Positions 2,111-44,743 of a stretch of 57,276 bases of DNA are shown piece after piece; the first letter of the stretch is position 1, and each line of letters starts with the position of its first letter. A program made the translations under genes and the position numbers. This DNA comes from Gemmatimonadota bacterium (lineage in GTDB: Bacteria > JAAXHH01), in assembly GCA_026702745.1 (NCBI GenBank), contig JAPPBT010000034.1, forward strand, positions 1 to 57,276, in the 5' to 3' direction. The notes below the pieces were generated by a model that worked only from the letters and a program-made list of their open reading frames with translations, searched no databases and had not been told where the DNA came from.

Positions 2111-2162
2111 GGCCACCCGGACGCGCCGCGTATTACGTGCTCGGCCACCCGGACGCGCCGCG
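2111..2162. repeat. Two-copy tandem duplication at the hemA/hemC junction
   Basis: A 20-base unit occurs identically at 2111-2130 and 2143-2162 (period 32). The copies fill the space between the hemA stop at 2163 and the hemC start region and contain the alternative hemC GTG. Confidence 0.85.
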
Positions 2163-3473
2163 CTATTCGTTCCCGGCGCCGCTCCCGGCGCCGTTCTTGT
2201 CGTTCCCGTGCTCGTCGAGGCCGAAGAGATGACGCAGGCTGTAGAGGTGGTAGTCCCGGTGCTCCGGATCGGAAGTGTTCCTGAGCTGGACCGTCGGTTG
2301 ATGGAGCAGCTTGTTCACGATGGCACGGGTCATCTTCTCCACCGTCTCCCGGTCCTCATCGGAGAGATGGTCGAGCTGGGTGAAGGCGCGGCCGACCTCC
2401 TGGTGCCGGACATCCTCCGCGAAGTGGCGGAGTTGGGCGATGGTAGGCGCGATGGAAAGGTTCTGGTACCACGCGAGCAACCGCTCTACCTCGGTCTCGA
2501 CGATCCCCTCCACCTTCAGCGCTTCCGCCTTCCGCGCCTCCGCGTTGTCGTCCACCACCGACTGCAGGTCGTCCATGTCGTAGAGGATGACGTTGTAGAG
2601 ATCGCGCACGCGGGGGTCGATGTCCCGGGGTGCGGCGATATCGATCAGGAATATGGGGCGGTTGCGGCGGTCGTGCATGATCTCCGCCATCCGGTCCCTG
2701 CCCACCACCGGTTCCGTGGCGCCGGTGGAACTGATGACGATGTCGACGTCGGAGATCATCTGCAGTCCGTCCTGAAGGGAAACGGCGATCCCGTCGTAGC
2801 GGTGGGCCAGGTCGGCGGCCCGGTCGTAGGTCCGGTTGGCGACGATCAGCCGCTTCACGCCCTGGTCGACGAGGTACTCCGCGGTCCGTTCGCCGGTCTC
2901 CCCCGCGCCGATCAGCATGGCAGTATGCTGCCGCAGGTCCTTGAAGATCTTCCGCGCGAGTTCGACCGCCACGGAACTGACGGAAACCGAGCCCGTCCCG
3001 ATCTCCGTGGTCTCCCGCACCTGCTTGCCCACGGCCAACGCCTTTTCGAACAACCGGTTGAGGACCAGTCCCGTGTTCTTCGTGTTCAGCGACTGCATGT
3101 AGGCCTCTCTGACCTGGCCGAGGATCTGCTGCTCCCCGACGACCATCGAATCCAGGCTGGAGACCACCCGGAACAGGTGCCGGATGACCGCCTCGTCCCT
3201 CCGGTGATAGAGGTAGGGAGACAGCACGCCCTCGTCCACGCCGTGGATCTCGTGAAACCACGCCTCGATCGGGCCGGGATCGATGTGTTCCTCGTCTGTG
3301 GTCGCGTACATCTCGCTGCGGTTGCACGTGGACAGCAGCACCGCTTCCAGGATGCCGCTCGAGGCCTTCACGAAAGAGAGGGCCTTATCCTGGAGTGATT
3401 TCGTCAGGACCGCCTGGTCGCGCACATCGATAGGCGCGGTATGGTGACTCAGTCCGACGAGTGTAAGATGCAT
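2163..3473 (-). CDS. hemA: Glutamyl-tRNA reductase
   Basis: Reduces glutamyl-tRNA to glutamate-1-semialdehyde, the first step of C5-pathway haem synthesis. The 436-residue protein has GLSHHTAPIDVRD at its N-terminus, the catalytic cysteine at residue 50 in LLSTCNRSEMYA, an NADPH-binding GAGETGERTAEYL and VANRTYDRA, and the C-terminal dimerisation helix. The start at 3473 is fixed by GGTGGAG about five bases upstream and by the family N-terminus. A longer frame to 3554 lacks similarity. It overlaps the 3' end of the precorrin-2 dehydrogenase gene by 25 bases. The C-terminal tail is Gly/Ala/Ser-rich, coded by a short GC repeat. Confidence 0.97.
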   Translation of the reverse strand: MHLTLVGLSHHTAPIDVRDQAVLTKSLQDKALSFVKASSGILEAVLLSTCNRSEMYATTDEEHIDPGPIEAWFHEIHGVDEGVLSPYLYHRRDEAVIRHLFRVVSSLDSMVVGEQQILGQVREAYMQSLNTKNTGLVLNRLFEKALAVGKQVRETTEIGTGSVSVSSVAVELARKIFKDLRQHTAMLIGAGETGERTAEYLVDQGVKRLIVANRTYDRAADLAHRYDGIAVSLQDGLQMISDVDIVISSTGATEPVVGRDRMAEIMHDRRNRPIFLIDIAAPRDIDPRVRDLYNVILYDMDDLQSVVDDNAEARKAEALKVEGIVETEVERLLAWYQNLSIAPTIAQLRHFAEDVRHQEVGRAFTQLDHLSDEDRETVEKMTRAIVNKLLHQPTVQLRNTSDPEHRDYHLYSLRHLFGLDEHGNDKNGAGSGAGNE

Positions 3474-4093
3474 GACTCCACCCTGTCGCGCGCTTCTTCC
3501 GCGCGTCCGGCGCGCAGGAGATCGAGGAGGTCGGAATCGACCAGGGACGTCCACAACCTCGCGCGGGTTTCGGTTTCATCGGGGTACGCGGCCTTCATCC
3601 GGGGGCGGTACGCGCCAAGCAGGTCGAGCAGTTCGGCGTATTCGGGTCCGTAGGCCCCTTCCAGCTGCCCGCGGATCTTCTTCGCCAGCGCGGGACTCTT
3701 GCCTCCCGTGGAAATGGCGATGCACAGGTCGCCCTGCCGGACGATGGAAGGAACGATGTACCGGCACAACGCGGGCACGTCCACCACGTTGACCATGATG
3801 CCCTCCGCCTCGGCGTCCCGGTAGACCCGCTCGTTGACTTCAGTGGAATCGGTCGCCGAGATGACCAGCCTGTAGCCGCGGACGTCGCCGGGTTCGTAGG
3901 TCTTCGCGAACCAGCGCAAGGCGCCGCGTTCCGCCTGGTCGCGCAGTTCGTCCGTCAGATCCGGACTGATCACGGTAACGACCCCTCCGCATTCGAGCAG
4001 CGATCCCGCCTTTTCCTCCGCGATCGCACCGCCGCCCACCACCAGGCACGGCTGTTCTTCGATGTCGACGAAGGCGGGATAGTATTTTTTCAT
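3449..4093 (-). CDS. Precorrin-2 dehydrogenase / sirohydrochlorin ferrochelatase-type protein (CysG N-terminal/Met8 family)
   Basis: NAD-dependent oxidation of precorrin-2 to sirohydrochlorin, possibly also iron insertion, on the way to siroheme. The protein has 214 residues. It has a Rossmann motif CLVVGGGAIAEEKAGSLLECG, the ISATDSTEVNERVY segment that carries the catalytic aspartate in this family, and the sulfate/porphyrin-pocket stretch VPSIVRQGDLCIAISTGGKSPALAKKIR. The SUMT domain is absent here and encoded instead by the cobA-hemD gene three genes downstream, so together they replace a full CysG. It is directly upstream of hemA and overlaps it. A siroheme-using reductase occurs at 50130. 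Confidence 0.92.
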   Translation of the reverse strand: MKKYYPAFVDIEEQPCLVVGGGAIAEEKAGSLLECGGVVTVISPDLTDELRDQAERGALRWFAKTYEPGDVRGYRLVISATDSTEVNERVYRDAEAEGIMVNVVDVPALCRYIVPSIVRQGDLCIAISTGGKSPALAKKIRGQLEGAYGPEYAELLDLLGAYRPRMKAAYPDETETRARLWTSLVDSDLLDLLRAGRAEEARDRVESCILHSSD

Positions 4094-4117
4094 GGTTTAA
4101 TTACCGTCAGTTGTTGT

Positions 4118-4170
4118 CCAGTAGTCGTAAGTTGTCCAGTTGTTGTGCAGTCGACGTCCAGTCGACGTCG
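4118..4170. repeat. Degenerate short repeat in the ccsA/precorrin-2 dehydrogenase gap
   Basis: The 92-base gap carries several degenerate copies of GTCCAGT. It also has two exact copies of GTCGACGTC (4148-4156, 4159-4167). Nothing else is visible in the gap. Confidence 0.6.
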
Positions 4171-4185
4171 TCTGGTTTGCCGTCG

Positions 4186-6024: not shown

Positions 6025-6445
6025 GGCGCGCTTTGCTCCTTTGGGTAAAACCAATGCCAACAGTTATCTAAGGAAACGGTTCAGTGTTCGCCCGTCGAGG
6101 AGGTATATAGATGCAGTAAATCTATACCATTTGAGAATCAAAATGGTAAATGTAAAATCAAGATGTCCGGAGCTTTTGCGTGTTGAATTTACCGGGCATG
6201 TTCCCATTGAAGAATCAACAGTCGATGCAGAAGCGCGTTTGATGGCTCAAGCCAGTACCAGATCGTCCTTGACTCATGAGTGCAAATCCGCTATCAACGT
6301 TAAACTTTGCCGGCTAAGACATTTCATAACCGCTAATATCGTTGAAAAATCAAATAGTTTTCCGATCAGGCCTGTTTTTCTGACCGATCTGACTCTCCGA
6401 CTTTACCGCAGTTGCACTATTCACCCTCTCAAAAGGAAGTATGCA
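6025..6445. other. AT-rich intergenic region
   Basis: About 420 bases between two divergent genes. The 60 bases from 6121 are only 35% G+C by count, against about 75% in nearby housekeeping genes. An open frame continues upstream of the lipoprotein gene through it but shows no recognisable protein. I see only the candidate promoter at 6269-6297 in it. Confidence 0.7.
6269..6297 (+). promoter_or_regulatory. Candidate sigma-70 promoter for the LRR lipoprotein gene
   Basis: TTGACT (6269-6274), 17-base spacer, TATCAA (6292-6297), about 150 bases upstream of the start at 6446. Matches are 5/6 and 4/6 to consensus. Confidence 0.35.
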
Positions 6446-8398
6446 ATGGTACGCAGTGGATCGCTGTTTATGCGCTATGCAGTCATGCTGTCCCTGGCGA
6501 CGTTAACGGCATGCGGGAAGGACAGTCCCACTCAGCCGCAGGCGCGGGTTTCCTCCAGCATCGTACTCTCGTCGAATTCCGCGACGCTCACCACCATAGG
6601 ACAGACGTTACAGATCAATGCAACGGTACTGGATCAGGAAAACAACCCCCTTTCTGGCGCGATCGTTGCCTGGTCGAGCAATAACCCGGCCGTCGCCTCG
6701 GTCAGCAGCAGCGGTCTCGTGACGGCAGTGTCGGGCGGCACCGCCCAAATCAGAGCCACGTCCGGCAGCGCCTCTGCCAATGCCAGCGTAACCGTCATGC
6801 AGGTGGCGGTCAGTGTCGCCATCGCCCCGACTACCTCCACGCTGGCGTTGCTGGGTGAAAGCGTCCAACTCGAGGCCGCGGTGTATGACAGCGGGAACGC
6901 GCCTATCGCCGGTGCGGCCGTGGTGTGGTCCAGCAGCAATCCACTCATTGCCGCGGTGAGTGCGAACGGACTGGTAACAGCGGTTTCGAACGGCACGACC
7001 CGGATCACAGCCACGTCGGGCGGTGTCTCGGCCAACGCAACGATCACGGTCATGCAGACCGTCGGAAGCATCACCCTGGTACCTTCCGTTGTCACGCTCA
7101 CGGCGATTGGCGAAACCGAACAGCTTTCCGCCAGCGTGTATGACGGAGGCGGACAGCCCTTCGCAGATGCTGAAGTGAGCTGGTTCAGCAGCAATCCGGC
7201 CATCGTGTCTGTCGATGCGAACGGTCTGTTGACGGCCGTATCGAACGGTACCGTGCTGATTGAGGCCAGGTCGAATGGCCAGTCCGCAAGTGCGGCGGTT
7301 ACGGTCTTGCAGTCCGCGAGCCGTATCGAGATTGCACCGCCGACGGCAATGTTGACATATGTTGGTGAGACCGTGCAACTGACCGCCAAGGTACGGGACG
7401 GGAACGGACACCCCATAGCTGATGCCGCGGTCAACTGGACCAGTGACGACACCGGTGTTGCGACCGTCAGCATGCAAGGCCTGGTGGCGGCGGTTATGAG
7501 CGGTACCGCAGAGATAACTGCCGAATCGGGAACGGTATCCGCACGTATCGAAGTCGTCGTGGATATACCCGATACAGACCGGGACACATTGGTGGAGTTT
7601 TACACCACCACCGGAGGACCAGACTGGTTGAACAGCTCAAACTGGCTGAGTGACGCACCGCTAGGGGAATGGTACGGTGTGACTGACGATGAAGATGGTA
7701 AGGTGACCGAACTAAGGCTGCGAAGTAACAACCTCAGGGGCTCACTTCCCTCGAAGCTGGCCAATCTCGACAACCTGAGGGTTCTGGATCTCAACACCAA
7801 TCGGCTGACTGGAACTATACCACAGGAACTGGGCGGCCTTTCAAACCTTATTGACTTCAATCTCGGGGCAAATAACCTGAGTGGAACGATACCATCGTCA
7901 TTAGGCAATCTTCAGAACGCCATTAACTTCAAACTCGACCGCAACCTCCTTACCGGGCCTATACCTTCGGCACTAGGGAATCTAACATCGGTCACTAACT
8001 TCGACCTGTGTTCCAACATGCTGAGCGGCTCAATACCATCGGAATTAGGCAATTTGTCATCCGTAGGATTCCTCTGCCTCGGAGCGAACCGGTTTACAGG
8101 ATCATTGCCATCGGCACTTGGAGATTTATCGACAGTGTGGTATTTTCATGTTGGACAGAACATGTTGAGCGGCAGGATCCCATTGTGGTTCGGGAACTTT
8201 AGCAACTTGCAGGAGCTTTTGCTCTTCAACAACAATTTCACAGGTGCATTCCCACGTACTCTCGCCGACCTACCTGCTCTGATCCGTTTGAGCATATCGG
8301 GCAATAGTTTGACCGGATGCATCCCCCCTTCGCTTCGCAGTCTGCCCAGAAACGACTTGAATAGTCTGAACCTGCCTAACTGCAGTACGGGACAGTGA
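6446..8398 (+). CDS. Big_2-repeat and plant-type leucine-rich-repeat surface lipoprotein
   Basis: A 650-residue predicted lipoprotein. The signal peptide ends in the lipobox LTAC (lipid cysteine 23). Four bacterial Ig-like Big_2 domains follow (roughly residues 37-360), each with the pattern SSNPxVASVSxxGLVTAVSxGTxxI. Then comes a domain opening DRDTLVEFYTTTGGPDWLNSSNWL and about nine LRRs of the LxxNxLTGxIPxxLGxL type typical of plant receptor kinases. It is likely a surface adhesion or binding protein. The ATG at 6446 has AAAAGGAAG seven bases upstream and places the signal peptide correctly. Coding composition is lower in G+C than the neighbours (32 of 60 bases in the line from 8041), suggesting horizontal acquisition. 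Confidence 0.88.
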   Translation: MVRSGSLFMRYAVMLSLATLTACGKDSPTQPQARVSSSIVLSSNSATLTTIGQTLQINATVLDQENNPLSGAIVAWSSNNPAVASVSSSGLVTAVSGGTAQIRATSGSASANASVTVMQVAVSVAIAPTTSTLALLGESVQLEAAVYDSGNAPIAGAAVVWSSSNPLIAAVSANGLVTAVSNGTTRITATSGGVSANATITVMQTVGSITLVPSVVTLTAIGETEQLSASVYDGGGQPFADAEVSWFSSNPAIVSVDANGLLTAVSNGTVLIEARSNGQSASAAVTVLQSASRIEIAPPTAMLTYVGETVQLTAKVRDGNGHPIADAAVNWTSDDTGVATVSMQGLVAAVMSGTAEITAESGTVSARIEVVVDIPDTDRDTLVEFYTTTGGPDWLNSSNWLSDAPLGEWYGVTDDEDGKVTELRLRSNNLRGSLPSKLANLDNLRVLDLNTNRLTGTIPQELGGLSNLIDFNLGANNLSGTIPSSLGNLQNAINFKLDRNLLTGPIPSALGNLTSVTNFDLCSNMLSGSIPSELGNLSSVGFLCLGANRFTGSLPSALGDLSTVWYFHVGQNMLSGRIPLWFGNFSNLQELLLFNNNFTGAFPRTLADLPALIRLSISGNSLTGCIPPSLRSLPRNDLNSLNLPNCSTGQ

Positions 8399-8477
8399 TG
8401 CTCAAGATGTGGATTAACACGGACCGGCAGCACTATGGTGAGACTGGTTTACACTGGCTCTCGATTTTCCGAGCAGG

Positions 8478-9167
8478 ATGTCTATGAGCAGAATTAGAGA
8501 GCTATCCGGCTCACTGGATAAGATTGTAAGGTTCCTGGCATATCACACGCCAAGACCCTTCAGGGATTTCATATTACCCACTTATCCTTATGCGATTAAC
8601 CCCGCCATGCTTTCTTTTCTGACCCAGGCTATTGACAAAAACCGGGGAAAGGGTGGCGCCGTGTGTGAGATCGGTGTCGGATGGGGACATACTTCCGTTT
8701 TCCTTCTGGAACATATGCGCAGTGCGGGATACAATGACAAAGTGGTTTTCGTCGATACCTTTCGAGGTTTTACGTCGGAGTCGATGGACCATGAAGTAGC
8801 GCATCGCGGTAAACTCAAAGGGGAGATCGACCGTTTTGGATACGCGTCTCCAATTGTCTACGAGAAGAACCTGCGAAAGCAAGGATATGATTACTTCGAA
8901 GTCATTGCCGGTAATTGTGAGAAAGTGGACTGGGCACGTTTCGGTACCCTGGCTGTAGTTCTTCTTGACGTCGACCTATATCTACCGACGATTAGGACAC
9001 TGGAAGCAATATATCCCTTACTTGTACCTGGCGGTGTCATACTGATCGACGACTGTCAGCCGGATCAGACGTTTGACGGCGCGTTGCAGGCCTATATTGA
9101 GTTTACCAAGGCCAGGGACCTGCCCTTTGAAATCGTCGGAGGGAAAGCGGGACTCATAACCGGATAA
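8478..9167 (+). CDS. TylF/MycF-like class I SAM-dependent methyltransferase
   Basis: 229 residues. It has a SAM-binding motif CEIGVGWGHTSVFLL near residue 65, VVFVDTFRGFTSES, and the TylF-type metal/substrate segment VVLLDVDLYLPTIRTLEAIYPLLVPGGVILIDDC. The family O-methylates sugars or small molecules in a metal-dependent way. The target here is unknown. Codon composition is also lower in G+C than average, like the LRR lipoprotein 79 bases upstream, so the two may have arrived together. A second in-frame ATG lies two codons downstream of the chosen start. Confidence 0.8.
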   Translation: MSMSRIRELSGSLDKIVRFLAYHTPRPFRDFILPTYPYAINPAMLSFLTQAIDKNRGKGGAVCEIGVGWGHTSVFLLEHMRSAGYNDKVVFVDTFRGFTSESMDHEVAHRGKLKGEIDRFGYASPIVYEKNLRKQGYDYFEVIAGNCEKVDWARFGTLAVVLLDVDLYLPTIRTLEAIYPLLVPGGVILIDDCQPDQTFDGALQAYIEFTKARDLPFEIVGGKAGLITG

Positions 9168-9173
9168 CACCTC

Positions 9174-10103: not shown

Positions 10104-10119
10104 GCGGCGGGACGCGAGG

Positions 10120-11330: not shown

Positions 11331-11457
11331 CGCCTGGTCCGCCTGGTCCGCCTGGTCCGCCTGGTCCGCCTGTCCCGGTTCCTGACGCTCGGGACGGCCG
11401 CCAATCGCCTGGTCCGCATGACCCGCTCGGTCCGGTTCCTGACGCTCAGGACGGCCG
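11331..11457. repeat. Nested tandem repeats at the 5' end of the M48 protease gene
   Basis: Four to five 9-base units (CGCCTGGTC) at 11331-11378. A second level repeats a roughly 25-base segment at 11376-11400 and 11433-11457 (period 57). If translated, the first array codes an Arg-Leu-Val string. Confidence 0.85.
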
Positions 11458-19159: not shown

Positions 19160-19250
19160 TGCCGGACGAGGTAGAGCCGGACCAGGAAGAGCCGGACCAG
19201 GAAGAGCCGGACCAGGAAGAGCCGAACCAGGCGCAAGCATTCGGACCAGG
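19160..19250. repeat. 15-base tandem repeat upstream of the Gfo/Idh/MocA gene
   Basis: Three near-identical copies of GACCAGGAAGAGCCG plus degenerate flanking copies, in the 150-base gap between the ceramidase-like stop and the next start. Confidence 0.85.
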
Positions 19251-20380: not shown

Positions 20381-20400
20381 GATTCCCTACGACGTTAACT

Positions 20401-20434
20401 CGTAATCGTCACCAAAATCAATTACGCTTTAAAA
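20401..20434 (+). terminator. Possible terminator hairpin after the Gfo/Idh/MocA gene
   Basis: CGTAAT (20401-20406) pairs with ATTACG (20421-20426), followed by CTTTAAAA. The stem is short and the loop is 14 bases, so it is only a candidate. Confidence 0.3.
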
Positions 20435-25823: not shown

Positions 25824-25849
25824 ATATCTCGCCCTCCGTTTTCTCGATA

Positions 25850-25970
25850 CCCTACGGTCATCTTACGGCCACTCTACAGACACCCTACCGCCACCGTAAG
25901 GCAACCCTGCGACCACCTTACGGCCACCGCACGGCGACCTTACGGCCGGCTTACGGCCATCTTGCCGCCA
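25850..25970. repeat. Degenerate 10-12-base repeat field downstream of the alcohol dehydrogenase
   Basis: Many variants of TTACGGCCACC fill the gap between the dehydrogenase stop and the ankyrin gene start. The same string forms the last codons of the dehydrogenase, as if the gene end had been repeatedly copied. Confidence 0.75.
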
Positions 25971-27003: not shown

Positions 27004-27027
27004 GCTTACCTCCATGCCTGTCGGACT

Positions 27028-27111
27028 GATGCCGGGCCGTCCTCCTACGCCTGCCGGATTGATGCCGGGCCGTCCTCCGGTGCCGCTACTCACGTTGATG
27101 CCGGGCCGTCC
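27028..27111. repeat. Three-copy interspersed tandem repeat upstream of the dehydrogenase
   Basis: GATGCCGGGCCGTCC occurs at 27028-27042, 27061-27075 and 27097-27111 (periods 33 and 36) between the GH32-like gene and the dehydrogenase start. Confidence 0.85.
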
Positions 27112-31011: not shown

Positions 31012-31043
31012 TGTCACGTGGTCTATTGTGTCACGTGGTCTAT
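31012..31043. repeat. 17-base-period tandem repeat upstream of the HisC-like gene
   Basis: TGTCACGTGGTCTAT at 31012-31026 and 31029-31043, just upstream of the ribosome binding site. Confidence 0.75.
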
Positions 31044-34117: not shown

Positions 34118-34851
34118 GTCTTCTGGGGATCGACATCGGCGGAACGGGCATCAAAGGCGCGCCGGTCTGCCTGGAATCCGGAAGACTCGAAACGGAACGC
34201 TTCAGGATCGGCACCCCCAGGCCGGCCACGCCAAAGAAAGTCATCGAGACCGCGGCGGAGATCGTCCGGCACTTCGACCTGCAGGGTCCCGTGGGAATCG
34301 GCTTTCCCGCGGTCATCAAGCACGGTATGGTGCGGACCGCCGCAAACATCGACGCGTCCTGGATCGGCGTCAACGCCGTCGAACGCATGGCCAAGGCCAC
34401 GGACCGGCCGGTTGTTTTCGTGAACGACGCAGATGCCGCGGGCATGGCGGAAATGCGGTTTGGCGCGGGCCGGGGCCGGGACGGCGTGGTGGTCATCGCG
34501 ACCCTGGGAACCGGCATCGGCACCTCCCTTTTCGTCGACGGCACGCTCGTGCCCAGCACGGAATTCGGACACATCGAGATGAAAGGCCGCGTCGCGGAGA
34601 AATACGCCGCCGAAAGCGTTCGGAAGGCGAAGGGCCTGAGCTGGGAGGAATGGGGCGGACGGGTGAACGAGTACCTGCGCAGGCTGGACGAGTTGATCCG
34701 CCCGGACCTGATCATCGTGGGCGGCGGCGCCAGCAACAAGTACGAGAAGTTCTCGTCGTGCTTCACCGTGGATACCGAGGTCGTGCCCGCCCGGATGAGG
34801 AACCAGGCCGGGATCATCGGGGCGGCCCTGGCCGCGCAGACCGCCGCGTAA
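34114..34851 (+). CDS. ppgK: Polyphosphate glucokinase (ROK family)
   Basis: 245 residues. LLGIDIGGTGIKGA (phosphate loop), VGIGFPAVIKHGMVRTAANID, FVNDADAAGMAEMRFGAG with the catalytic aspartate, and TLGTGIGTSLFVDGTLVPSTEFGH, which matches polyphosphate-dependent rather than ATP-only ROK kinases. Phosphorylates glucose with inorganic polyphosphate. Translationally coupled to the cold-shock/VOC gene. The 3' end including the stop is duplicated downstream. Confidence 0.88.
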   Translation: MSLLGIDIGGTGIKGAPVCLESGRLETERFRIGTPRPATPKKVIETAAEIVRHFDLQGPVGIGFPAVIKHGMVRTAANIDASWIGVNAVERMAKATDRPVVFVNDADAAGMAEMRFGAGRGRDGVVVIATLGTGIGTSLFVDGTLVPSTEFGHIEMKGRVAEKYAAESVRKAKGLSWEEWGGRVNEYLRRLDELIRPDLIIVGGGASNKYEKFSSCFTVDTEVVPARMRNQAGIIGAALAAQTAA

Positions 34852-34925
34852 GCCGCGTAACCGACGTATAGCGGCCCTGGCCGCGCAGACCGCCGCGTAA
34901 GCCGCAGACCGCCGCGTGACCCGCA
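34822..34925. repeat. Duplication of the ppgK 3' end
   Basis: A 35-base segment containing the last codons and stop of ppgK (34822-34856) recurs at 34871-34905 (period 49), followed by a further partial copy. Confidence 0.9.
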
Positions 34926-34938
34926 GAAAGCGCAGTAC

Positions 34939-35823: not shown

Positions 35824-35862
35824 TACGGCTGTACCGGCCGCCGCCATCCCTTACTTCCCATT

Positions 35863-36609
35863 ATGCGACTCTTCCACGATGACGACCAGGTCCAGCTCTG
35901 GCTGGGCGACGCGCGCCGTATGGACCCGATTCCCGACCGGTGCGCCGGCATGGTCCTGACCTGTCCACCCTGGTGGGAGAGCGGCGACTACGGCCACCCG
36001 GACCAGATCGGTTTCGGCCAGACCTATCCGGACTTCCTGGCCTCGCTCTCCGAGGTTTGGGCGCAATGTTACCGGTGCCTCATGCCCGGCAGGGCGATGA
36101 TCGTCTGGATCGCCGACCTGCTCTGGCGGGATGAACCGGTCGCCCTTGCGGCGGATACGCACCGCAGTCTCCAGGATGCGGGATTTCAGTACGAGGCCAC
36201 CTGGTACTGGTTTGAACCGGGGAAGGCGGTGCGGGAGGAACCGGCGGATGCCCGGATGCCGCTCCGATGCCGGCCCAAGGTGCACGCCGAGACCATACTG
36301 GTATACCGGAAGCCGGGCGAATCCGAAGCGCCGCTACCTGGCGTGTTGGAGGAAAGCGAAGTACCCGGGGATGAATGGCGAGCGGGCCGCCAGGCCGTCT
36401 GGACGCCCGACGATAACCTCGAACATCCCTACAGGCGCCTGATCCGCCTCTGGTCATACGCGGGCGATACGGTCCTGGACCCCTTTGCCGGGCAGGGCAC
36501 CATCGCACTGGCCGCCCGCGCGCTGGGGCGCCGCAGCATTTCCGTGGAACTGAACCCCGATTCCTGCCGGCACATCACTTCGCTACTCTCGCAGCCTCAC
36601 ATGCCGTGA
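35863..36609 (+). CDS. Beta-class DNA methyltransferase (N4-cytosine or N6-adenine)
   Basis: 248 residues. Motif IV comes first (LTCPPWWESGDYGHPDQIGFGQTYPDFL), the target-recognition region lies in the middle, and the SAM motif I is near the C-terminus (TVLDPFAGQGTIALAARALGRRSISVELN), which is the beta-class order. The TCPPWW form of the (S/T)PP(Y/W) motif is compatible with m4C or m6A. No restriction endonuclease lies beside it, so it is an orphan or works with the AlkZ-related neighbour. Its last codons fall inside a 42-base tandem duplication. Confidence 0.85.
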   Translation: MRLFHDDDQVQLWLGDARRMDPIPDRCAGMVLTCPPWWESGDYGHPDQIGFGQTYPDFLASLSEVWAQCYRCLMPGRAMIVWIADLLWRDEPVALAADTHRSLQDAGFQYEATWYWFEPGKAVREEPADARMPLRCRPKVHAETILVYRKPGESEAPLPGVLEESEVPGDEWRAGRQAVWTPDDNLEHPYRRLIRLWSYAGDTVLDPFAGQGTIALAARALGRRSISVELNPDSCRHITSLLSQPHMP

Positions 36610-36678
36610 TCGGCCAGCAGGCGCCGCAGGTAGGCGCCTCACATGCCGTGATCGGCCAGCAGGCGCCGCAGGTAGGCG
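36595..36678. repeat. Perfect 42-base tandem duplication at convergent gene ends
   Basis: 36595-36636 and 36637-36678 are identical. Copy 1 holds the DNA methyltransferase stop (36607-36609). Copy 2 holds the stop of the convergent isomerase gene (36639-36641). Confidence 0.95.
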
Positions 36679-37475: not shown

Positions 37476-38551
37476 TGCGTGTCGTCCTTTCTTCTGTCGG
37501 CCCGGTCGCCAGCGGTGTCGGTCCGGTCGCCGTCCATCGAGCAGGACTGTTCCAGGAAATAGACCATGACGTATTCTTCGGCCGTGCGCTTGGGACCGGG
37601 CAGGTTTCTTATCCGCCGCGCGTGGGCTTCGAGGTGGCGCTTGACGAAGAACAGGTAGAGCTGGGTAACAAAGTCGGTGGCCGTATGGTTATAGAGATAG
37701 GTGGGCGACAGGGAAAGGGTGGTATCGACGCCCGGATAAGACTCCCTTTGCCGACCCTCGATCATTTTCTCGCTCAGGGATTCGAGTTCCTCGGTGGACA
37801 CGCTGAAGAGGAACTCGCGAAAGGCCTGCAGTTCCTCCGGCGGACAGGTCTTCCTGGAGAAATAGTCGAGGAACCGGATGTCGCCACCCGCGCGCATCAG
37901 GGCGAATACCTCGGAAACCCCCATGAGGGTACCCAGCTGCACGGTGGTCTGCCGCCGGGCTTCCCAGGTGGTCTCGAGAACGGGCAGGAAGGCTTCGATC
38001 CGGCGGGAGAACCGGTCCTCCCAGAGGTGGGTCAGGGCGGTGGCCGCCTTGGTGCGGACCGCGCGGCCCAAGCTGTCGTCGCAGACGATGGCGATCAGCA
38101 GCGATTCGATCACCTTGTTGTGTATGCTCTGGCTGATCCGGGCGCCGATGGCGTCTTCCACGACCGTGAATTCGTCCCGGCCGCCCAGCGCTTCCTGGGC
38201 AACCTGGTGCAGGAGACGGAACAGGTTTAGACGCGCCATGACGTACACCTGCCCGACCGCTGCCCGCATGGGAAGCAGCATGTCGACGGTGAAGAGCGTG
38301 GCGTTGGACAACGCCTCGATGAGGGAAGCGGCATCCCGCCGCTGCTGGCCGAGGGACTGGCTTTCCAACAGGGAGGGATAGGCGTTCATGACCCTGGCCA
38401 GGTCGCTCAACCGGGCGATGGACTCGCAAATCGCCTGGTCGAGGTGCGCGGCGTCCGGATTCCTGCATTCCTTCAGTGAATCGGTGATGTCCCGGATCAG
38501 CCGCTTTTCGTCTTGCGTCAGGACGGGCGTATCGAGGGTGGTGGTGTCCAA
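37472..38551 (-). CDS. Alpha-helical protein of unknown function
   Basis: 359 residues, predicted almost entirely helical, no signal peptide, no motif I recognise. Notable segments are QSIHNKVIESLLIAIVCDD and AVRTKAATALTHLWEDRFSRRIEAFLPVLE, which look HEAT-like. The start codon is TTG with only a distant AAGGT. It overlaps the isomerase gene by four bases, so the two are probably cotranslated. The C-terminal tail is Asp/Arg-rich. Confidence 0.72.
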   Translation of the reverse strand: MDTTTLDTPVLTQDEKRLIRDITDSLKECRNPDAAHLDQAICESIARLSDLARVMNAYPSLLESQSLGQQRRDAASLIEALSNATLFTVDMLLPMRAAVGQVYVMARLNLFRLLHQVAQEALGGRDEFTVVEDAIGARISQSIHNKVIESLLIAIVCDDSLGRAVRTKAATALTHLWEDRFSRRIEAFLPVLETTWEARRQTTVQLGTLMGVSEVFALMRAGGDIRFLDYFSRKTCPPEELQAFREFLFSVSTEELESLSEKMIEGRQRESYPGVDTTLSLSPTYLYNHTATDFVTQLYLFFVKRHLEAHARRIRNLPGPKRTAEEYVMVYFLEQSCSMDGDRTDTAGDRADRRKDDTQ

Positions 38552-38622
38552 GTGGTCTAGTTTTACCTTATTACCCTGCGCGCGGGGGGCGCGCTTTACT
38601 TTTATTTCGGGTAGAAACCTGG

Positions 38623-38655
38623 CATTCCAGGTAGAAAATCATTCCAGGTAGAAAA
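38623..38655. repeat. Duplication of the rhaM 3' end
   Basis: A 16-base segment coding the last residues of the mutarotase (38640-38655) recurs directly downstream of its stop at 38623-38638 (period 17), with a degenerate third copy near 38609. Confidence 0.8.
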
Positions 38656-38959
38656 CCTGCTCCAGCGGCACCATGTTCTCGTCGGCGTGCTTGCCGCCGA
38701 GGTTTTCGAAATACGGTGCCATGAACTCCTGCCAGCGCGCGTTGACGTCCGTCTCCGCCATCCTGGCCAGCGCCTTCTCGAAATCCGGGGTCTCGCAGTA
38801 ACCGAAGAGCAGTCCGTCCTCGCGCATAAACAGCGAGTAATTACGCCAGCCCGCGTCTTGCAATGCCTCCAGCATCTCGGGCCAGACCTCCCGGTGGTGC
38901 TTCTTGTAGCCTTCGATCATGTCTTCCTTGACTTTGAGAATGAATCCCACCCGCTGCAT
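38639..38959 (-). CDS. rhaM: L-rhamnose mutarotase
   Basis: 106 residues. RVGFILKVKEDMIEGYKKHHREVWPEML with the catalytic histidine, ALQDAGWRNYSLFMREDGLLFGYCE, and NARWQEFMAPYFENL. Interconverts the alpha and beta anomers of L-rhamnose. Other rhamnose genes are not in the window, so it may serve related methylpentoses. Followed upstream on the same strand by a PIG-L deacetylase. Confidence 0.92.
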   Translation of the reverse strand: MQRVGFILKVKEDMIEGYKKHHREVWPEMLEALQDAGWRNYSLFMREDGLLFGYCETPDFEKALARMAETDVNARWQEFMAPYFENLGGKHADENMVPLEQVFYLE

Positions 38960-39002
38960 GGTTGTCTCCTTCGCGCTTCCTGCCTGCTACAGGCCTGTTC
39001 TG

Positions 39003-39863
39003 TCACGCTTCGTACTTGTAACTGACTTTCTCGATGTTCTCGTGGTCCGACCTGCGCGCCCGTTCGAGGGCGTAGGACGAGACGGGGAAGTAGTAGTGGG
39101 TTTCGGCATTGAGCGAAATGAAACCCTCGGCGTAGGCGACGTGGCCCGCGCTTCCGAAGGCCCCGTCGGACGTCTCGATGCGCTTGCGCGCGTAGGCGCC
39201 GCCGTAGCCCTGGCTCACCAGGGCGTCCAGCGCGGCCAGTTTCTTGTCGACCACGTCCGTGATGTCGATGAATACGTCGTTGTAATACCCGCCGCGGGCG
39301 TCCCAGACGTTCCTGGGCAGGCTCGCACCGCCGCAGCCCCAGTAGAACACCTGGGCCACCTGGTGGGGCGGACGCCGGTCGCCCGGATCGACGGAACCGG
39401 CCAGGCCCATGGCGAGCATCACGATGCGGCCGGCCACGGCGTGGGGGTTCCAGGTGCCGCCGCCCTCGTCGGGGAAATGGGTGAGGATGATATCCGGCTT
39501 CAGTTCCCGCAGCAGGCTGGCGAGCTGGCGCACGATCGGCCGGTCGGGCAGGAACACGGCATCGTCCGCGCCCATGAAATAGACGTCCTCCACGCCGAGG
39601 GCGCGGCACGCCGATTTCACCTCTTCCGCCTTCACGTCGGACCGTTCCGCCATCATTTGCTTCAGGGAGTCCCCGTCCGGCACCTCTTCCGCGTGGAACA
39701 AGTCGTCGCTGATGACCTTGTCGTGCACGCGGGCGCCGTGGGTCAGCACGACGCATCCCACCCAGTCGCCGCGGGCGGTGTGATGGGCCATGGCGCCGCC
39801 CGACTGGTCAAATATGTCCGCCGGATGCGCACCGATGGACAGGATGCGAAGCCCGTCGCTCAT
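39003..39863 (-). CDS. PIG-L/LmbE-family deacetylase
   Basis: 286 residues. Metal motif SIGAHPADIFDQSGGAMAHH (the AHPxD form), VVLTHGARVHDK, and ILTHFPDEGGGTWNPHAVAGRI carrying a later metal histidine. Zn-dependent N-deacetylation of acetylated sugars or conjugates is expected. Substrate unknown. Lies 43 bases upstream of rhaM on the same strand. Confidence 0.88.
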   Translation of the reverse strand: MSDGLRILSIGAHPADIFDQSGGAMAHHTARGDWVGCVVLTHGARVHDKVISDDLFHAEEVPDGDSLKQMMAERSDVKAEEVKSACRALGVEDVYFMGADDAVFLPDRPIVRQLASLLRELKPDIILTHFPDEGGGTWNPHAVAGRIVMLAMGLAGSVDPGDRRPPHQVAQVFYWGCGGASLPRNVWDARGGYYNDVFIDITDVVDKKLAALDALVSQGYGGAYARKRIETSDGAFGSAGHVAYAEGFISLNAETHYYFPVSSYALERARRSDHENIEKVSYKYEA

Positions 39864-40086
39864 AACGACACTCCCCTGTTTCGAGCAGGTGTGATCACGG
39901 CGTTCGATAGGGTATGCGGAACGCTTGACTGTGGCCGATAGAAAGGCTTACTTGTCCCAGAATCACCGGCGGATCGAATGGTCGGCAGACGAGGAGATCC
40001 GGTTATCGGTGGTGCCGATCGCTTAAGATAAATCGGAATATAGATGGTCCCACCTGCCCGTCAACAGGATTTTCCACAGGGCGTCC

Positions 40087-41316
40087 ATGTTCGTCCGGCT
40101 CGGCTCACGCTGGAAAGCGGCCCGCCTGCTTTCCATCCCCGATTTCCGTAACCTCTGGATATCCAGCAGCATCTGGTGGCAGACGCGCTGGATGGATGAA
40201 CTGATCGTCGGCTGGGTCGTGCTGGAACTGACCGACTCGGCCGGCATGGTGGCGCTGGTCAGCTTCTGCCGCATGGCGCCGTTCATGCTCTTCGGTCCCT
40301 TCTTCAGCACAGTGGTCCGGTACGTGAGCTACCGGTGGCTCATCGTCAACGCCCAGTTCATCAACTGCTTTGTCAACGGTCTCTTCTGGGTCCTCGCCCT
40401 GCTTGGCCACCTGGCCTTCTGGCACGTCGTCCTCGGATCCGTCCTGATCGGCCTGGGCAGCGCCTATGACTGGTCCTGCCGCCGGGCGCTCATCCCGGAC
40501 CTGGTGGGCAAGGACCGGACGACGGACGCCATGGTGCTGGAGACGGTGCCCCAGAACATCTCCCGGCTGATCGGGCCGCTCATGAGCGGTATCCTGCTCG
40601 AGTTCGCCGGGACGAAGGGCGGTTTCCTGGCCCTCTTCCTCCTGCAGGTCGTCCAGATCGTCGTGATCGTCCGGCTTTCCGCCGCTACGGACCGGAAGGG
40701 CCGGAAGAAGGGCCGGCTCGGCCCAATGAAGGACCTGCTCCTCGGCTACCGTTATTCACGCCGGCATCCCAGGATCTCGGGCGTGCTGATGATTACCTTC
40801 ATCATGAACGCCTTCGCCTTCTCCTACCAGGTCCTGTTGCCCGTCTTCGTCCGCGACGTCCTCTTCCTCGGCCCCCTGGAACTGGGCATCCTCGGCGCGG
40901 GCACCGGCATCGGCTCCATCCTCGGCATCGCCCTCATCGACCGGCTGGGCCAACACTACCGCGACGGCCTGGTCTTCACCATCAGCTCCCTGGTCAACGC
41001 CCTGGCCACGCTGGTCTTCGCCCTGTCGACGTCCTTCCCGCTTTCGCTCATGATGCTGATCCTGGTGGGCGTCGGGCAGACCGGGTTCGGCATCATGCAG
41101 TCCTCCATCGTCCTCCGCACGTCCAGCGACGCCATGCGGCCCCGGGTCATGGGCCTCCTCGTCCTCGCCATCGGCGGCGGTCCGCCCGGCCGCCTGCTCG
41201 TCGGCGGACTGGCCGCGGTCGCGGGCGCGCCCCTGGCCCTCACGATCTGCGGTGGGATCGCCAGCCTGGGAGTAGTCAGCGTGCTATGGAGAGTGGGTGG
41301 ATTGCGGAAGGACTGA
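40087..41316 (+). CDS. MFS transporter (MFS_3/EntS-like)
   Basis: 409 residues with about 12 membrane segments. FRNLWISSSIWWQTRWMDELIVGWVVLELT, then GSAYDWSCRRALIPDLVGKD in the A-motif-like loop, GAGTGIGSILGIALIDRLG and a C-terminal half ending at GLRKD. The arrangement resembles enterobactin-exporter-like efflux carriers. Substrate unknown. The upstream 220-base gap to the PIG-L gene shows nothing else. Confidence 0.88.
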   Translation: MFVRLGSRWKAARLLSIPDFRNLWISSSIWWQTRWMDELIVGWVVLELTDSAGMVALVSFCRMAPFMLFGPFFSTVVRYVSYRWLIVNAQFINCFVNGLFWVLALLGHLAFWHVVLGSVLIGLGSAYDWSCRRALIPDLVGKDRTTDAMVLETVPQNISRLIGPLMSGILLEFAGTKGGFLALFLLQVVQIVVIVRLSAATDRKGRKKGRLGPMKDLLLGYRYSRRHPRISGVLMITFIMNAFAFSYQVLLPVFVRDVLFLGPLELGILGAGTGIGSILGIALIDRLGQHYRDGLVFTISSLVNALATLVFALSTSFPLSLMMLILVGVGQTGFGIMQSSIVLRTSSDAMRPRVMGLLVLAIGGGPPGRLLVGGLAAVAGAPLALTICGGIASLGVVSVLWRVGGLRKD

Positions 41317-41434
41317 GATGCGGCCGCGTTGGCGGCGGGCGGTGCAGTCGACCTTGGCTGCGCGTGGACGACTGGCGGCCGGCCTGGTGATGCGGTGAGC
41401 GAGGCGGCGCGGGCGGCCTGGTGGCGCGGCTCGT

Positions 41435-42817
41435 TTACCGCAGCCAGCCCAGCCGGTCCTTGCGCCAGCCCAGCCGGTCGAGATGGTTCGCCCGGATCGC
41501 CTCGATGTGGCGAGTGTGCAGAGCCTGCATCTCCTCGGTCCATCGGTACTCGTCCAGCAGGTCTTGGTCGAGTTCCACGCCAAGCCCGGGTCCCTCGGGA
41601 ACGCGGAGGCACCCGTCCTCGTAAGGCATCTTGCCGCCCTTGATGATGTCGCCGACCCACTGGTTGTAGTGGGCGTCCAGGCCGTGGAGCGACATGGGCA
41701 TGGTCCCGTTGCCGTGCACGATGTGGTACGGAATGGTGTAGGGGAAGGCGAAGGCAGCGACGTGGAGGCGTATGGCCGTGCCCGGTCCCAGTTCGTAGGC
41801 GCTGTGCATGCCCAGTTCCATGCCCATGAACCGGGCGGTGTCGTAGTACCGCTTGAGGGCCAGCGGCCCCGCGTAGGCGTCCGGCGCGGTCACGTCGGCG
41901 GCCACGTGGCGGCGCATGACGTCCAGGTCCAGCGGCTGGTCCAGCGTCTCGTCGCCGTAACGGCCGGAAACGTAGGTGCCGTAGGGACGGGGCGCCGCAT
42001 CCCTGCGGAGCGGCGGCAGCCAGGCATGGGACGATATGGGGATGCTGCTCATGAGCCGCAGGCGGTGGCCGGCGCGGAAGATGTTCTCGAACCGGCCGCC
42101 GACGGGTTCCTCGATCCACTCGATCCGGCAGTCCTCCACCCCCTGCATGAACCGCAGGGCTTCGCTCTCGCTCCACGACGCGTGGGGATCGACGCGGATG
42201 TCCACGTCGAAGCCGGCCTCGTCCCGGATGTTGTGGACGAGCTCGACGTAACGATGGGGCTCGAAATCGCACATGGACAGCTTGATAATGCGGAAGGTCT
42301 CGTCCTCCATGAGCGACTTCACGTGCTGTGGATAGGTATCGAAGGTCACCTCGTGCTCGCCGTTGACATCGGGGAAACGGTACCAGGTATAGGCTGCGAT
42401 GGGGATCTTCGTGACCACGGGCGAATCGAGTTCGAAAACATCCCGCAGGTACCGGAAGAGGGGCTTGCCGGCGACCTTGCCGGCCAGGTCCCAGTAGGCC
42501 AGGCCCATCAGCCCCCGGATCTCCGGTTCGAAGGGGTTTTTACCCAGGACCCGGGAACGCAGCGCGTCGGCCTCGCTGGACAAACCTTCGGCTACGCCCA
42601 CCAGGCCCTGGTCTGTTTCGAATTCGGCGAATGAGAACCCCTCTGCGGACCCGTCCCATCGCTTCGTGCCCCGCCACGGCATCAACACGCGCCAGGTGCG
42701 CACGTCCGTGATCTTCAGCCCGGCTGCGCGTCCGTCCTCGTTGATCCGGTTCTGGCGGGCCTTGATGTCTGCTACGTTCTCCCGGTCGAAGGCGGCGACG
42801 GCGTCCACGTCATACAT
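41435..42817 (-). CDS. Enolase-superfamily (mandelate racemase/muconate-lactonising) enzyme
   Basis: 460 residues. N-terminal capping domain (ITDVRTWRVLMPW) and barrel with KLSMCDFEPHRYVELVHNIR, IRVDPHASWSESEALRFM (metal Asp), CRIEWIEEPVGG (metal Glu) and C-terminal MELGMHSAYELGPGTAIRLHVAAF. Probably a sugar-acid dehydratase or related enzyme. Start at 42817 (AGAGG upstream) because the conserved fold begins shortly after. The gene start is preceded by two tandem copies of its own leader (see repeat). Confidence 0.86.
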   Translation of the reverse strand: MYDVDAVAAFDRENVADIKARQNRINEDGRAAGLKITDVRTWRVLMPWRGTKRWDGSAEGFSFAEFETDQGLVGVAEGLSSEADALRSRVLGKNPFEPEIRGLMGLAYWDLAGKVAGKPLFRYLRDVFELDSPVVTKIPIAAYTWYRFPDVNGEHEVTFDTYPQHVKSLMEDETFRIIKLSMCDFEPHRYVELVHNIRDEAGFDVDIRVDPHASWSESEALRFMQGVEDCRIEWIEEPVGGRFENIFRAGHRLRLMSSIPISSHAWLPPLRRDAAPRPYGTYVSGRYGDETLDQPLDLDVMRRHVAADVTAPDAYAGPLALKRYYDTARFMGMELGMHSAYELGPGTAIRLHVAAFAFPYTIPYHIVHGNGTMPMSLHGLDAHYNQWVGDIIKGGKMPYEDGCLRVPEGPGLGVELDQDLLDEYRWTEEMQALHTRHIEAIRANHLDRLGWRKDRLGWLR

Positions 42818-42900
42818 GGCGAGCGTTCCTCTTAACGGCGTCCACGTCATACATGCCCGGCGCTCCTCTGGATGGCGTCCACGTCATACACGGCCGGCGC
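42817..42900 (-). repeat. 37-base tandem copies of the vapC-stop/enzyme-start junction
   Basis: Start codons recur every 37 bases at 42817, 42854 and 42891 (ATG, ATG, GTG). Each upstream copy is a 14-codon frame (MYDVDAVKRNARHV and MYDVDAIQRSAGHV) whose stop overlaps the next start. The vapC C-terminus reads VQRSAGRV in the same register. Confidence 0.9.
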
Positions 42901-43321
42901 TCCTCTGGACGGCAGGGCCCTTCTCGTATGGATTCAGCGTTTCGACGCCGAGCCGGTCATAGGATTCCGGATCACCGGTGACCACGGTCAGCCGGTGCAC
43001 CACGGCCGTCGCGGCGATCATGGCGTCGGTCATGCGGACGTCCCATCGGCGGTAAAGAAGCTTTCCCCACACGCGGAAGACCGCCGGATCCATGGGAAGG
43101 ACACGTTGGGAATCCATCAGTTTTCCCATCCAGGACTCCAGTTCCGCCGCCCGGGAAGCATCCTTCGCCCGGGCGAACTCGATACCCGTCTGAATCTCGC
43201 CCACGGTCACGGCGGAAAGGTAGACCTGGTCCGGGGCCAGTCCCATAAACCACTCCAGCGCATCCTGGTGCGGCTGGCTCCTGCGCAGTTCCGATACGAC
43301 TTCGGTATCCAGTAGATACAT
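42884..43321 (-). CDS. VapC-type PIN-domain toxin
   Basis: 145 residues. PIN acidic residues in MYLLDTEVVSEL (Asp5), VTVGEIQTGIEFA, MTDAMIAATAVVHRL and VVTGDPESYDRLGVETLNPY. VapC toxins are Mg-dependent RNases that cleave tRNA or rRNA. It is 13 bases downstream of an antitoxin gene on the same strand. Its last codons are the source of the 37-base repeat that follows. Confidence 0.88.
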   Translation of the reverse strand: MYLLDTEVVSELRRSQPHQDALEWFMGLAPDQVYLSAVTVGEIQTGIEFARAKDASRAAELESWMGKLMDSQRVLPMDPAVFRVWGKLLYRRWDVRMTDAMIAATAVVHRLTVVTGDPESYDRLGVETLNPYEKGPAVQRSAGRV

Positions 43322-43400
43322 GGGTCATTCCGGATCATTCCGGGTCTGCAGGATTTGCAGGATTTGCAGGATCTGCAGGGTTTGCAGGGTCCGCCACGTT
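43322..43400. repeat. 9-10-base tandem repeats at the antitoxin 3' end
   Basis: Two 10-base copies (43322-43341) spanning the antitoxin stop, then about five copies of a GGATTTGCA-type 9-base unit from 43342, coding the Ala-Asp-Pro-Ala-Asn-Pro tail. Confidence 0.85.
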
Positions 43401-43658
43401 TGCAGGGCTTGCCGCCCCGCGCGATGGACGCCGTTCACGCAGCGGCGTCAGGGACTCGGTGCGCGCTTCCGGCGACAGCAGCAGGTCCTTCAGGCCGAGC
43501 CGGGCTGACCGCTCCATCCGTTCCCACGTTTCGATGGAAACCAGGACGGCCGTTTTCACGCCCCGCTTGGTCACAACCTGAGGACCCTCCTCCCGGCTCG
43601 TTTCGAGGAGTTCGCTGAACTTCGCCTTCGCTTCCTGGACCTGCCATTCCCTGCCCAT
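43335..43658 (-). CDS. Phd/YefM-family antitoxin of the VapC-type toxin
   Basis: 107 residues. WQVQEAKAKFSELLETSREEGPQVVTKRGVKTAVLVSIETWERME is the Phd fold in fragments. The C-terminal 30 residues are a repeat-coded tail of ADPANP units, an odd addition at the position that normally wraps the toxin. It starts the toxin-antitoxin operon and has its own promoter/operator upstream (43715-43751). Confidence 0.88.
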   Translation of the reverse strand: MGREWQVQEAKAKFSELLETSREEGPQVVTKRGVKTAVLVSIETWERMERSARLGLKDLLLSPEARTESLTPLRERRPSRGAASPANVADPANPADPANPANPADPE

Positions 43659-43714
43659 GATACCGTGGCCTGTTCTAAGATCGACGTTCCCATTTGGATC
43701 GAAGAACGATAATC

Positions 43715-43751
43715 TAACTAGTCAGATAACTAGTTATTTTGAGAATGTCAA
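43715..43751 (-). promoter_or_regulatory. Toxin-antitoxin promoter with palindromic operator
   Basis: On the minus strand TTGACA (43751-43746), a 17-base spacer and TATCTG (43728-43723). A perfect inverted repeat TAACTAGT/ACTAGTTA (43715-43722 and 43729-43736) has its two arms on either side of the -10 hexamer, as expected for antitoxin autorepression. The region is AT-rich against its surroundings. Confidence 0.65.
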
Positions 43752-43902
43752 GAAAAACCGGCCCATCGGACGATCATCTTCCAATGCCGTTCAGTCGGAC
43801 TTATCTCTTGCCTTGACCTTTCCGCCGGGTTTTATTCGATGCTACGTACGCTGGAACACACTTGCTTTGTACGTGACCTTAAACACCAAAATCGGAAACG
43901 GC

Positions 43903-44706
43903 ATGACCACCGGCACAATCTCCCTGGGTGGCAAAGTCGCCGGACCGGCGCTGGTCCAGGAATGGGTCGATACGTTCAACCGCCAGGGATTCCTCTTTTT
44001 GGAGAATGTGCTGCCGCCCGACTGGTGCGAAGCCCTGCGCGAGGACCTGGACTTCGGCCTGCGGGAGAACCCGAATGGGCTCAATTCGGTCAGCGAGCAC
44101 ATGGCGCTGTGCCACCGCATGTTCGAGTTCAGCGAGACGAACCGCCGCCTCTTCGACCTCGAGCCCATCGTCAGCTTCGCCGAGGCATTGGTGGCCGAGA
44201 ACTGCCACGTCATCCACAACAACTCCTTTAAGACGCGTCCCGGCGGTTCCTTCCGGTGGCACCAGGACGACGCGCCGCATTTCCTGGTGACGAACGGAGA
44301 CCCTCCGGACAACATCCGCCTTCCGGTCCTCTTCTTCACCTGCAACTACTATCTCACCGACGTCACCGAACCCGAACACGGCGGCACGGAAGTCATCCCG
44401 GGTTCCCACCTCTTCGGCCGTCCCTGTCCCGATTCGCTGGAGGGCACCGAGTGGGAGGACCGGATCCACTACAACCTCGGCCCGGCGGGCAGCGTCACTA
44501 TGTTCAACAACCAGGTCTGGCACCGGGGCGGGCCGAACCGGAGTGACCGCACGCGGTACATCACCCAGATCACCTACGCGCGGCGCGTCATTGGCCATAA
44601 ATACTTTCCCTTCATCGACTACACCATGCCCGAGCACGTGTACCGGGACGCCGATCCCCGGCAGAAACGCCTGTTCGGGTTCCTGGAGCATGGCGCGTAC
44701 GGGTGA
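43903..44706 (+). CDS. Phytanoyl-CoA dioxygenase-family protein
   Basis: 267 residues, Fe(II)/2-oxoglutarate oxygenase. FNRQGFLFLENVLPPDWCEALR at the start, metal ligands in FRWHQDDAPHFLV (HxD) and VWHRGGPNRSDRTRY (distal His and the 2-oxoglutarate Arg). Hydroxylates small organic acids or natural products, substrate unknown. Start at ATG 43903. The frame is open upstream but without similarity. The last codons are duplicated in tandem. Confidence 0.88.
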   Translation: MTTGTISLGGKVAGPALVQEWVDTFNRQGFLFLENVLPPDWCEALREDLDFGLRENPNGLNSVSEHMALCHRMFEFSETNRRLFDLEPIVSFAEALVAENCHVIHNNSFKTRPGGSFRWHQDDAPHFLVTNGDPPDNIRLPVLFFTCNYYLTDVTEPEHGGTEVIPGSHLFGRPCPDSLEGTEWEDRIHYNLGPAGSVTMFNNQVWHRGGPNRSDRTRYITQITYARRVIGHKYFPFIDYTMPEHVYRDADPRQKRLFGFLEHGAYG

Positions 44707-44743
44707 CGGCGGGTTTCTGGAGCATGGTTCGTACGGGTGACGG
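44676..44743. repeat. 34-base tandem duplication of the dioxygenase 3' end
   Basis: 44676-44709 and 44710-44743 differ at only three positions. Each carries the final codons and a TGA stop. Confidence 0.92.

Follow-up and report, generated by a model that had tools for sequence, protein, structure and literature searches.

Short tandem duplications at gene ends in a Gemmatimonadota genus: probable products of slippage displayed by selection

Bacterial minisatellites, or variable-number tandem repeat (VNTR) loci, are locus-specific arrays with tandem units of about 9-60 bp that lie mostly between genes and vary in copy number between relatives. The closest account to the repeats described here is that of the Borg tandem repeats, which the passages concerned present as perfect, A-enriched units in extrachromosomal elements (PMC9879509). 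Small variable segments of bacterial genomes, some flanked by short direct repeats, have been described with slippage invoked to explain them; the passages in question, which treat replication slippage or short-homology illegitimate recombination in strains of well-studied species, describe no bias towards 3' ends (PMC2884548). For Salmonella, an enrichment of small deletions between genes is explained by selection in the relevant part of PMC3411829. Here we analyze the 57,276-nucleotide contig JAPPBT010000034.1 (assembly GCA_026702745.1) of a Gemmatimonadota bacterium (GTDB lineage Bacteria; JAAXHH01), hereafter the window, in which a sequence-only reading had noticed short tandem duplications at many gene junctions between positions 2111 and 44743, together with the genome and the genus to which it belongs. 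A search of mostly open literature, which is weak evidence of absence, found no report on the genus or of a bias of repeats towards stop over start codons.

The sequence-only reading had known of no standard feature type for these duplications; they fit minisatellite or VNTR loci, and the passages on Borg repeats offer a close parallel (PMC9879509). The copies stand head to tail with units of about 9-100 bp, those at 2111 and 34822 being only near-tandem, and copy number varies between related genomes, here between species. Unlike typical VNTR loci, they mostly consist of 2-3 imperfect copies and are denser in spacers than those of the comparison replicons named below. They also differ from the Borg repeats as those passages portray them, since only 29 of the 206 arrays in this genome are perfect (100% match) and they are not A-enriched: on the plus strand, A accounts for 15.8% of bases in spacers with arrays and 22.4% in the remaining spacers, and G+C is higher in the former (68% versus 56%). 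An interspersed repeat family, such as repetitive extragenic palindromes (REP), bacterial interspersed mosaic elements (BIME) or short tandemly repeated repetitive sequences (STRR), was considered and rejected, as 103 units of this genome yielded one weak cross-locus pair.

Arrays in spacers, genes and gene edges

The window is an entire contig (contig 34) of a 3.88-Mb genome in 102 contigs. Densities were taken from 725 kb of this genome, counting as an array any repeat with a score of at least 50 in Tandem Repeats Finder (TRF) and excluding masked stretches (those longer than 700 nt without a gene call, and those at piece ends), which hold 7 of the 206 arrays. Genes were predicted with our own gene caller; three more, added by hand from Pfam hits, enter the junction comparison and not the density counts. 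The genus set comprises 12 genomes (G000-G011, 87-98% complete) and the phylum set 16, and in a FastTree tree the inner branches are short.

Arrays are concentrated between genes. Spacers hold 17.7 per 10 kb, compared with 2.0 over the outermost 45 nt of genes and 1.3 in their interiors, and 112 of the 206 arrays have their midpoint in a spacer. Shuffled spacers gave 0.11 per 10 kb; within 28.5 kb of spacer, 47 arrays scored at least 50, against 0, 0, 0, 0 and 1 in five dinucleotide shuffles. The earlier observation is thus real and above chance: the proposed TRF comparison places spacers above both gene interiors and shuffled sequence, and the claim that interiors hold few repeats stands, their density being 13.6 times lower than that of spacers, though not zero. 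At all 12 places that it had named, reading the sequence directly and checking periods by script revealed a direct repeat of the claimed kind of period. Its statement that the units include the beginning or end of a gene held at 8 of the 12 (seven with a stop codon and two with a start codon, one place having both), so that stop codons bore it out and start codons had been overstated.

The arrays that do lie in genes preserve the reading frame. In this genome, the period is divisible by three in 81 of 85 coding arrays compared with 35 of 114 arrays touching a spacer, and all 47 exact pairs inside genes of the genus pool have such periods. Since coding arrays nearly all keep the frame, genes appear to be hit by the same process, with frame-shifting products lost; and because in-frame coding arrays are still rarer than spacer arrays, in-frame duplications are probably under selection as well.

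The two ends of a gene are treated very differently. Across the genus pool, arrays cross 77 of 1032 3' edges and 11 of 1076 5' edges, counts that are not fully independent because orthologous junctions of several species are included; in this genome alone, 37 of 482 3' edges and 6 of 496 5' edges are crossed (Fisher p 4e-7). Array coverage is 0.5-2% inside genes, rises over the last 30 nt before the stop codon, is highest, at about 16%, between 30 and 60 nt into the spacer and stands at 2.2% in the 10 nt before the start codon. Exact pairs number 14.3 per 10 kb in convergent spacers, 6.5 in co-directional and 3.4 in divergent ones. Beyond the genus, a small sample of C. metallidurans leans the same way (7 of 96 3' edges, 2 of 100 5' edges), and the direction was not seen in the similarly small sample from the same-family pair G012 and G013 (0 of 162 and 2 of 154).

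Differences between species and between bacteria

Aligning the junctions in relatives, as had been proposed, revealed that orthologous junctions differ between species, copy number included. Among 45 junctions comparable in at least six of nine species, 39 vary in length by at least 9 nt, and 28 carry a TRF array of score at least 50 in at least one species; none of the 28 is scored in all species, a count that must be read knowing that TRF overlooks near-tandem and some old repeats. Lowering the score to 40 and 30 (period at least 9) gave 29 and 30 array junctions, again with none scored in all species. At individual junctions, gains or losses can be followed at base resolution, and different species can carry different units in the same spacer. 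Private insertions of at least 8 nt are tandem copies of their neighbor in 11 of 33 cases, compared with 2 of 33 for shuffled inserts, and in this genome in 7 of 12; 20 private deletions were also seen. For pairwise spacer indels of 9-80 nt, drawn from eight overlapping genome pairs, 49 of 253 are recognizable tandem copies (9-26% per pair) versus 12 of 253 with shuffled inserts. Tandem duplication is therefore one source of spacer change among several.

Long-unit arrays set the genus apart. With periods of at least 15 bases, the genus sample (10 of the 12 genomes, five of them pooled in one row) holds 198 arrays in 163.5 kb of spacer, or 12.1 per 10 kb (individual rows range from 6.7 to 14.1), whereas the rest of the phylum sampled holds 3 in 35.9 kb (0.84), a 14-fold difference, and seven other replicons hold 9 in 63.4 kb (1.42). 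The latter are E. coli K-12, S. meliloti pSymB, the M. extorquens and C. metallidurans megaplasmids, S. avermitilis SAP1, Gemmatirosa plasmid 1 and R. jostii pRHL1, so that six of the seven are not main chromosomes; the highest, Gemmatirosa, reaches 5.5 per 10 kb (3 arrays in 5.5 kb). The division by period was chosen after seeing the data, with 15 bp lying just below the 17-49 of the sequence-only reading. G+C content is a partial confounder, as three of the four outgroups have 51-57%, yet five replicons of 62-69% G+C are also low. Counting all periods, the contrast narrows: 15.1 arrays per 10 kb of spacer in the genus and 6.4 in four other members of the phylum, while C. metallidurans and Gemmatirosa reach 7.3, which puts other bacteria within a factor of about 2.4. 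Inside genes, arrays of period at least 15 reach 1.2-1.5 per 10 kb in two genomes, G000 and G007, and 0.34-0.90 in the other genus rows, compared with 0-0.32 in the outgroups and 0 to 2.3 in the other replicons. This raised interior density in the genus favors a genome-wide rise in rate rather than a device acting at junctions.

Short-unit arrays in the same phylum form another class. Of the 23 arrays in the four other members, 16 have periods below 9; they are mainly 7-bp (AGTGACG, AATCCAA) and 8-bp units in the spacers of G015 (loci L141-L150) and G012 (loci L102-L108), and several G015 loci share the same heptamers, a likeness to cyanobacterial STRRs. An early reading that raised density is not specific to the genus, prompted by 25.5 arrays per 10 kb in G015, was dropped because the arrays there are mainly 7-bp repeats.

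Slippage, selection and the alternatives

We favor, with a probability of about 0.8, the explanation that duplications made by slippage at an unusually high rate are displayed at gene ends by selection. The short tandem duplications would be made while DNA is synthesized, by slipped-strand (microhomology-mediated) mispairing, and would arise chromosome-wide, at a raised rate in the genus. Purifying selection would then clear most duplications within genes, including nearly all that shift the frame, as well as those that disturb start codons, ribosome-binding sites or promoters. A duplication across the 3' end of a gene, however, should be nearly neutral and persist because the first stop codon and the entire protein stay in place. 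Once two copies exist, slippage could expand or contract the array while point mutations erode it. The physical step is suggested by the ends of the duplications: of 46 distinct exact two-copy spacer duplications, 29 have at least 3 bases of microhomology, measured as extension beyond the unit, against 6.2% of simulated duplications with random ends recovered by the same finder, although third-unit remnants could inflate the measure. With microhomology so enriched, most duplications look like slippage between short direct repeats. This enrichment, together with the differences between species, agrees with the sequence-only reading in its view of an ongoing slippage-like process tolerated outside genes.

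Several observations weigh against so simple an account. Most changes in spacers have another or an eroded origin, given that recognizable tandem copies make up only the 11 of 33 private insertions and 49 of 253 indels reported above. The remaining 17 of the 46 exact duplications have 0-1 base of microhomology (83% expected), and none has exactly 2; since the repeats at 2111 and 34822 are moreover near-tandem, with an unmatched interval between copies, another route to duplication may exist. The repeat at 2111 is visible by eye in 2-3 copies in all six genomes compared, not all of them scored by TRF, and is therefore old, so that not every repeat is recent. An edge is spanned by 30 of 81 units lying in spacers or at edges, where uniform placement predicts 27%, and the crossings number 29 at 3' edges against 3 at 5' edges; the excess counts against the purest model of uniform origin plus neutrality, fits a loss of start-proximal duplications, and the mutation itself may have a weak 3' preference. 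Both the frame and the edge arguments, finally, depend on our own gene caller.

Much of the same evidence bears on the proposal that the process is directed at gene boundaries, for instance by transcription termination or by conflict between replication and transcription at 3' ends. The roughly sevenfold preference for 3' over 5' edges, the high density in convergent spacers and the slight excess of edge-spanning units would all suit such a process, which the sequence-only reading had entertained. Against it, coverage peaks at 30-60 nt into the spacer rather than at the stop codon, start edges are avoided, and arrays of the same kind occur in coding DNA, where they have passed a frame filter; fold energy is not clearly different either (mean z -0.67 for arrays and -0.32 for other spacers, standard deviation about 1.3, n = 60 each). 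We accordingly regard direction to gene boundaries as unlikely. Less probable again is a role as functional spacer elements under positive selection, whether as regulatory repeats or in the spacing, decoupling and leader-peptide roles that the sequence-only reading had suggested. That arrays occupy many spacers and that length differs by at least 9 nt at 39 of 45 junctions would be in keeping with it, but the units of different loci are unrelated, none of the TRF-scored junction arrays is common to all species, start-proximal DNA is avoided and no Rfam family reached threshold in the window. An artefact of metagenome assembly is very hard to credit: the genus records, where titled, are indeed metagenome assemblies, but the same arrays appear in independent assemblies with diverged copies, and genomes from the rest of the phylum contain few of them. 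Slippage filtered by selection thus remains our preferred account. It suggests a rule for repeats at gene ends, namely that a tandem duplication spanning a stop codon leaves the gene whole, and it would make this genus a lineage in which the selective filter can be read directly in frame, start avoidance and stop tolerance.

Two further candidates were set aside, one for the mechanism and one for the raised rate in the genus. Ku-dependent fill-in of staggered breaks is unlikely because no Ku match was found in any of the 12 genus genomes. Loss of mismatch repair, RecJ or ExoVII does not serve as the cause, these genes being present nearly throughout the phylum set (RecJ in 16 of 16, a MutS_V match in 16 of 16, the ExoVII large subunit in 15 of 16); the ExoVII exception, G015, lies outside the genus and is 83% complete, and in G011 only the weaker of the two MutS_V copies of other genus members was found. 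Single-strand exonucleases stabilize tandem repeats. In the genus, the family match of the ExoVII large subunit is split around a longer unmatched middle (e.g., G000:C25:93143-93955), and its open frame, at 448-504 aa across the 12 members, exceeds the 437-443 aa of three relatives.

A difference in gene content offers a lead only. SbcCD is a hairpin-cutting nuclease. SbcD was above cut-off in none of the 12 genus genomes, G001 having one weak partial match, and in all four other phylum genomes. SbcC has full-length matches in those four, below the model cut-off, which only 1 of 14 control genomes passed, and weak partial matches alone in 7 of the 12 genus genomes. Conversely, 12 of 12 genus genomes, versus 0 of 4 others, encode a second Y-family-type protein (about 500 aa), and a second DnaE-type polymerase occurs in 12 of 12 versus 1 of 4 (G014). 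No more than about 3 kb separates their genes in 10 of the 12 genus genomes; they are on different contigs in G001 and G006, and in this genome they adjoin lexA (locus L017). Pfam domains and gene order lead us to read the two proteins as ImuB-like and DnaE2-like; no NCBIfam model named the ImuB-like protein, and the polymerase query there was in the wrong reading frame. Because the pattern sits on one branch of one tree, it is a correlation only, in genus genomes that are 87-98% complete. It is conceivable, if doubtful, that the ancestor of the genus became a tandem-duplication mutator through loss of SbcCD and/or gain of a LexA-linked ImuB-DnaE2 pair, and that tandem duplications of 15-60 bp, restricted by selection to gene ends and spacers, have remodeled its intergenic spacers and C-terminal tails ever since. 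In titles and the beginnings of abstracts on SbcCD with tandem repeats or tandem duplication, we found no test of such a link. Such a link, if true, would identify a genetic cause of the differences between lineages in how minisatellites form.

Repeats of the window and their surroundings

TRF reports 61 rows at a score of at least 30 within the window, and the repeats at the 12 named places are collected in the table.

Table. Repeats at the 12 named places of the window, with the state of the same place in other genomes of the genus (x, copies per array; TRF column, whether TRF reported the repeat).
Position	Repeat	TRF	Location	Gene edge in repeat	Other genomes
2111..2162	near-tandem repeat, 21 exact bases, period 32	no row	over hemC start (2116, - strand), hemA-hemC junction	start	see text
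11331..11457	9-bp x4.7 and 57-bp x1.9 arrays	yes	inside gene and in frame, near 5' end of M48 peptidase gene	none	five relatives: 9-bp x2.2 in G003, no 9-bp array in four
19161..19231	15-bp x4.7 array	yes	wholly in spacer	none	private to this genome among those compared; none scored in seven relatives; junction distance 152 nt here, 21-117 nt in the seven
25849..25959	11-bp x10 array	yes	reaches stop of zinc-binding dehydrogenase gene	stop	11- or 22-bp arrays in 6 of 8 genomes including this one; 11-bp array 2.5 to 10 copies
27009..27078	33-bp x2.2 array	yes	wholly in spacer, directly upstream of start codon	none	no array scored in 7 of 8 relatives; 34-bp x2.0 in G008
31012..31043	two-copy repeat, period 17 bp, 15 exact bases	no row	wholly in spacer	none	in this genome only among nine; different 12-bp triplication in G005 spacer
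34822..34927	period-49 repeat (35 exact bases) and 19-bp x2.3	no row for period 49	gene end	stop	other arrays at this gene end in G002, G007, G009
36594..36678	exact 42-bp duplication	yes	facing ends of DNA methylase and xylose-isomerase-like genes	stop	doubled in three of the 12 genus genomes, each in a form of its own; one copy in the other nine (G001, G003, G004, G005, G006, G007, G008, G010, G011)
38623..38655	17-bp duplication	yes	over stop of L-rhamnose mutarotase gene	stop	altered form in G009; single by eye in other seven compared
42797..42913	37-bp x3.2 array	yes	MR_MLE (enolase-like) gene start and PIN gene stop	start and stop	three copies in G000, G001, G002; one in G003, G004, G005, G008, G009; another array in G007
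43325..43388	10-bp x1.9 and 9-bp x4.7 arrays	yes	end of Phd/YefM antitoxin gene	stop	other unit lengths in G003 and G005
44676..44743	34-bp duplication	yes	over stop of PhyH dioxygenase gene	stop	private insertion of this genome among nine; single in eight relatives

The methylase/isomerase junction was matched in all 12 genus genomes; an apparent gap of -13 there in relatives was discarded as an artefact of assuming the same stop, whose position varies by eye. Of nine HemA loci from the genome collection, eight match at 88-97% identity and belong to metagenome bins labeled Candidatus Latescibacterota or Gemmatimonadetes bacterium, and the ninth matches at 70%; bins of that kind are frequently sponge-derived. 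A plasmid origin was considered for window positions 34000-46000, the part searched, and set aside, as it has no near match in the plasmid collection.

Larger differences between relatives also occur in the window. Beside the PIN and Phd/YefM pair, at 43753-43886 and close to the 5' end of PhyH, about 100 nt cannot be aligned with several relatives, and in G009 about 10 kb of additional DNA occupies this position. The stretch at 6050-9162, which encodes a Big_2/leucine-rich-repeat protein and a TylF-like methyltransferase and has a G+C content (about 55-56%) below that of its surroundings, is missing in G002, G005, G007 and G009, where the flanks nearly abut, and is present in part in G003. 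A further low-G+C stretch (about 50%) at 20380-22316 contains a beta-propeller gene; of the relatives compared, G003 alone could be anchored across this stretch.

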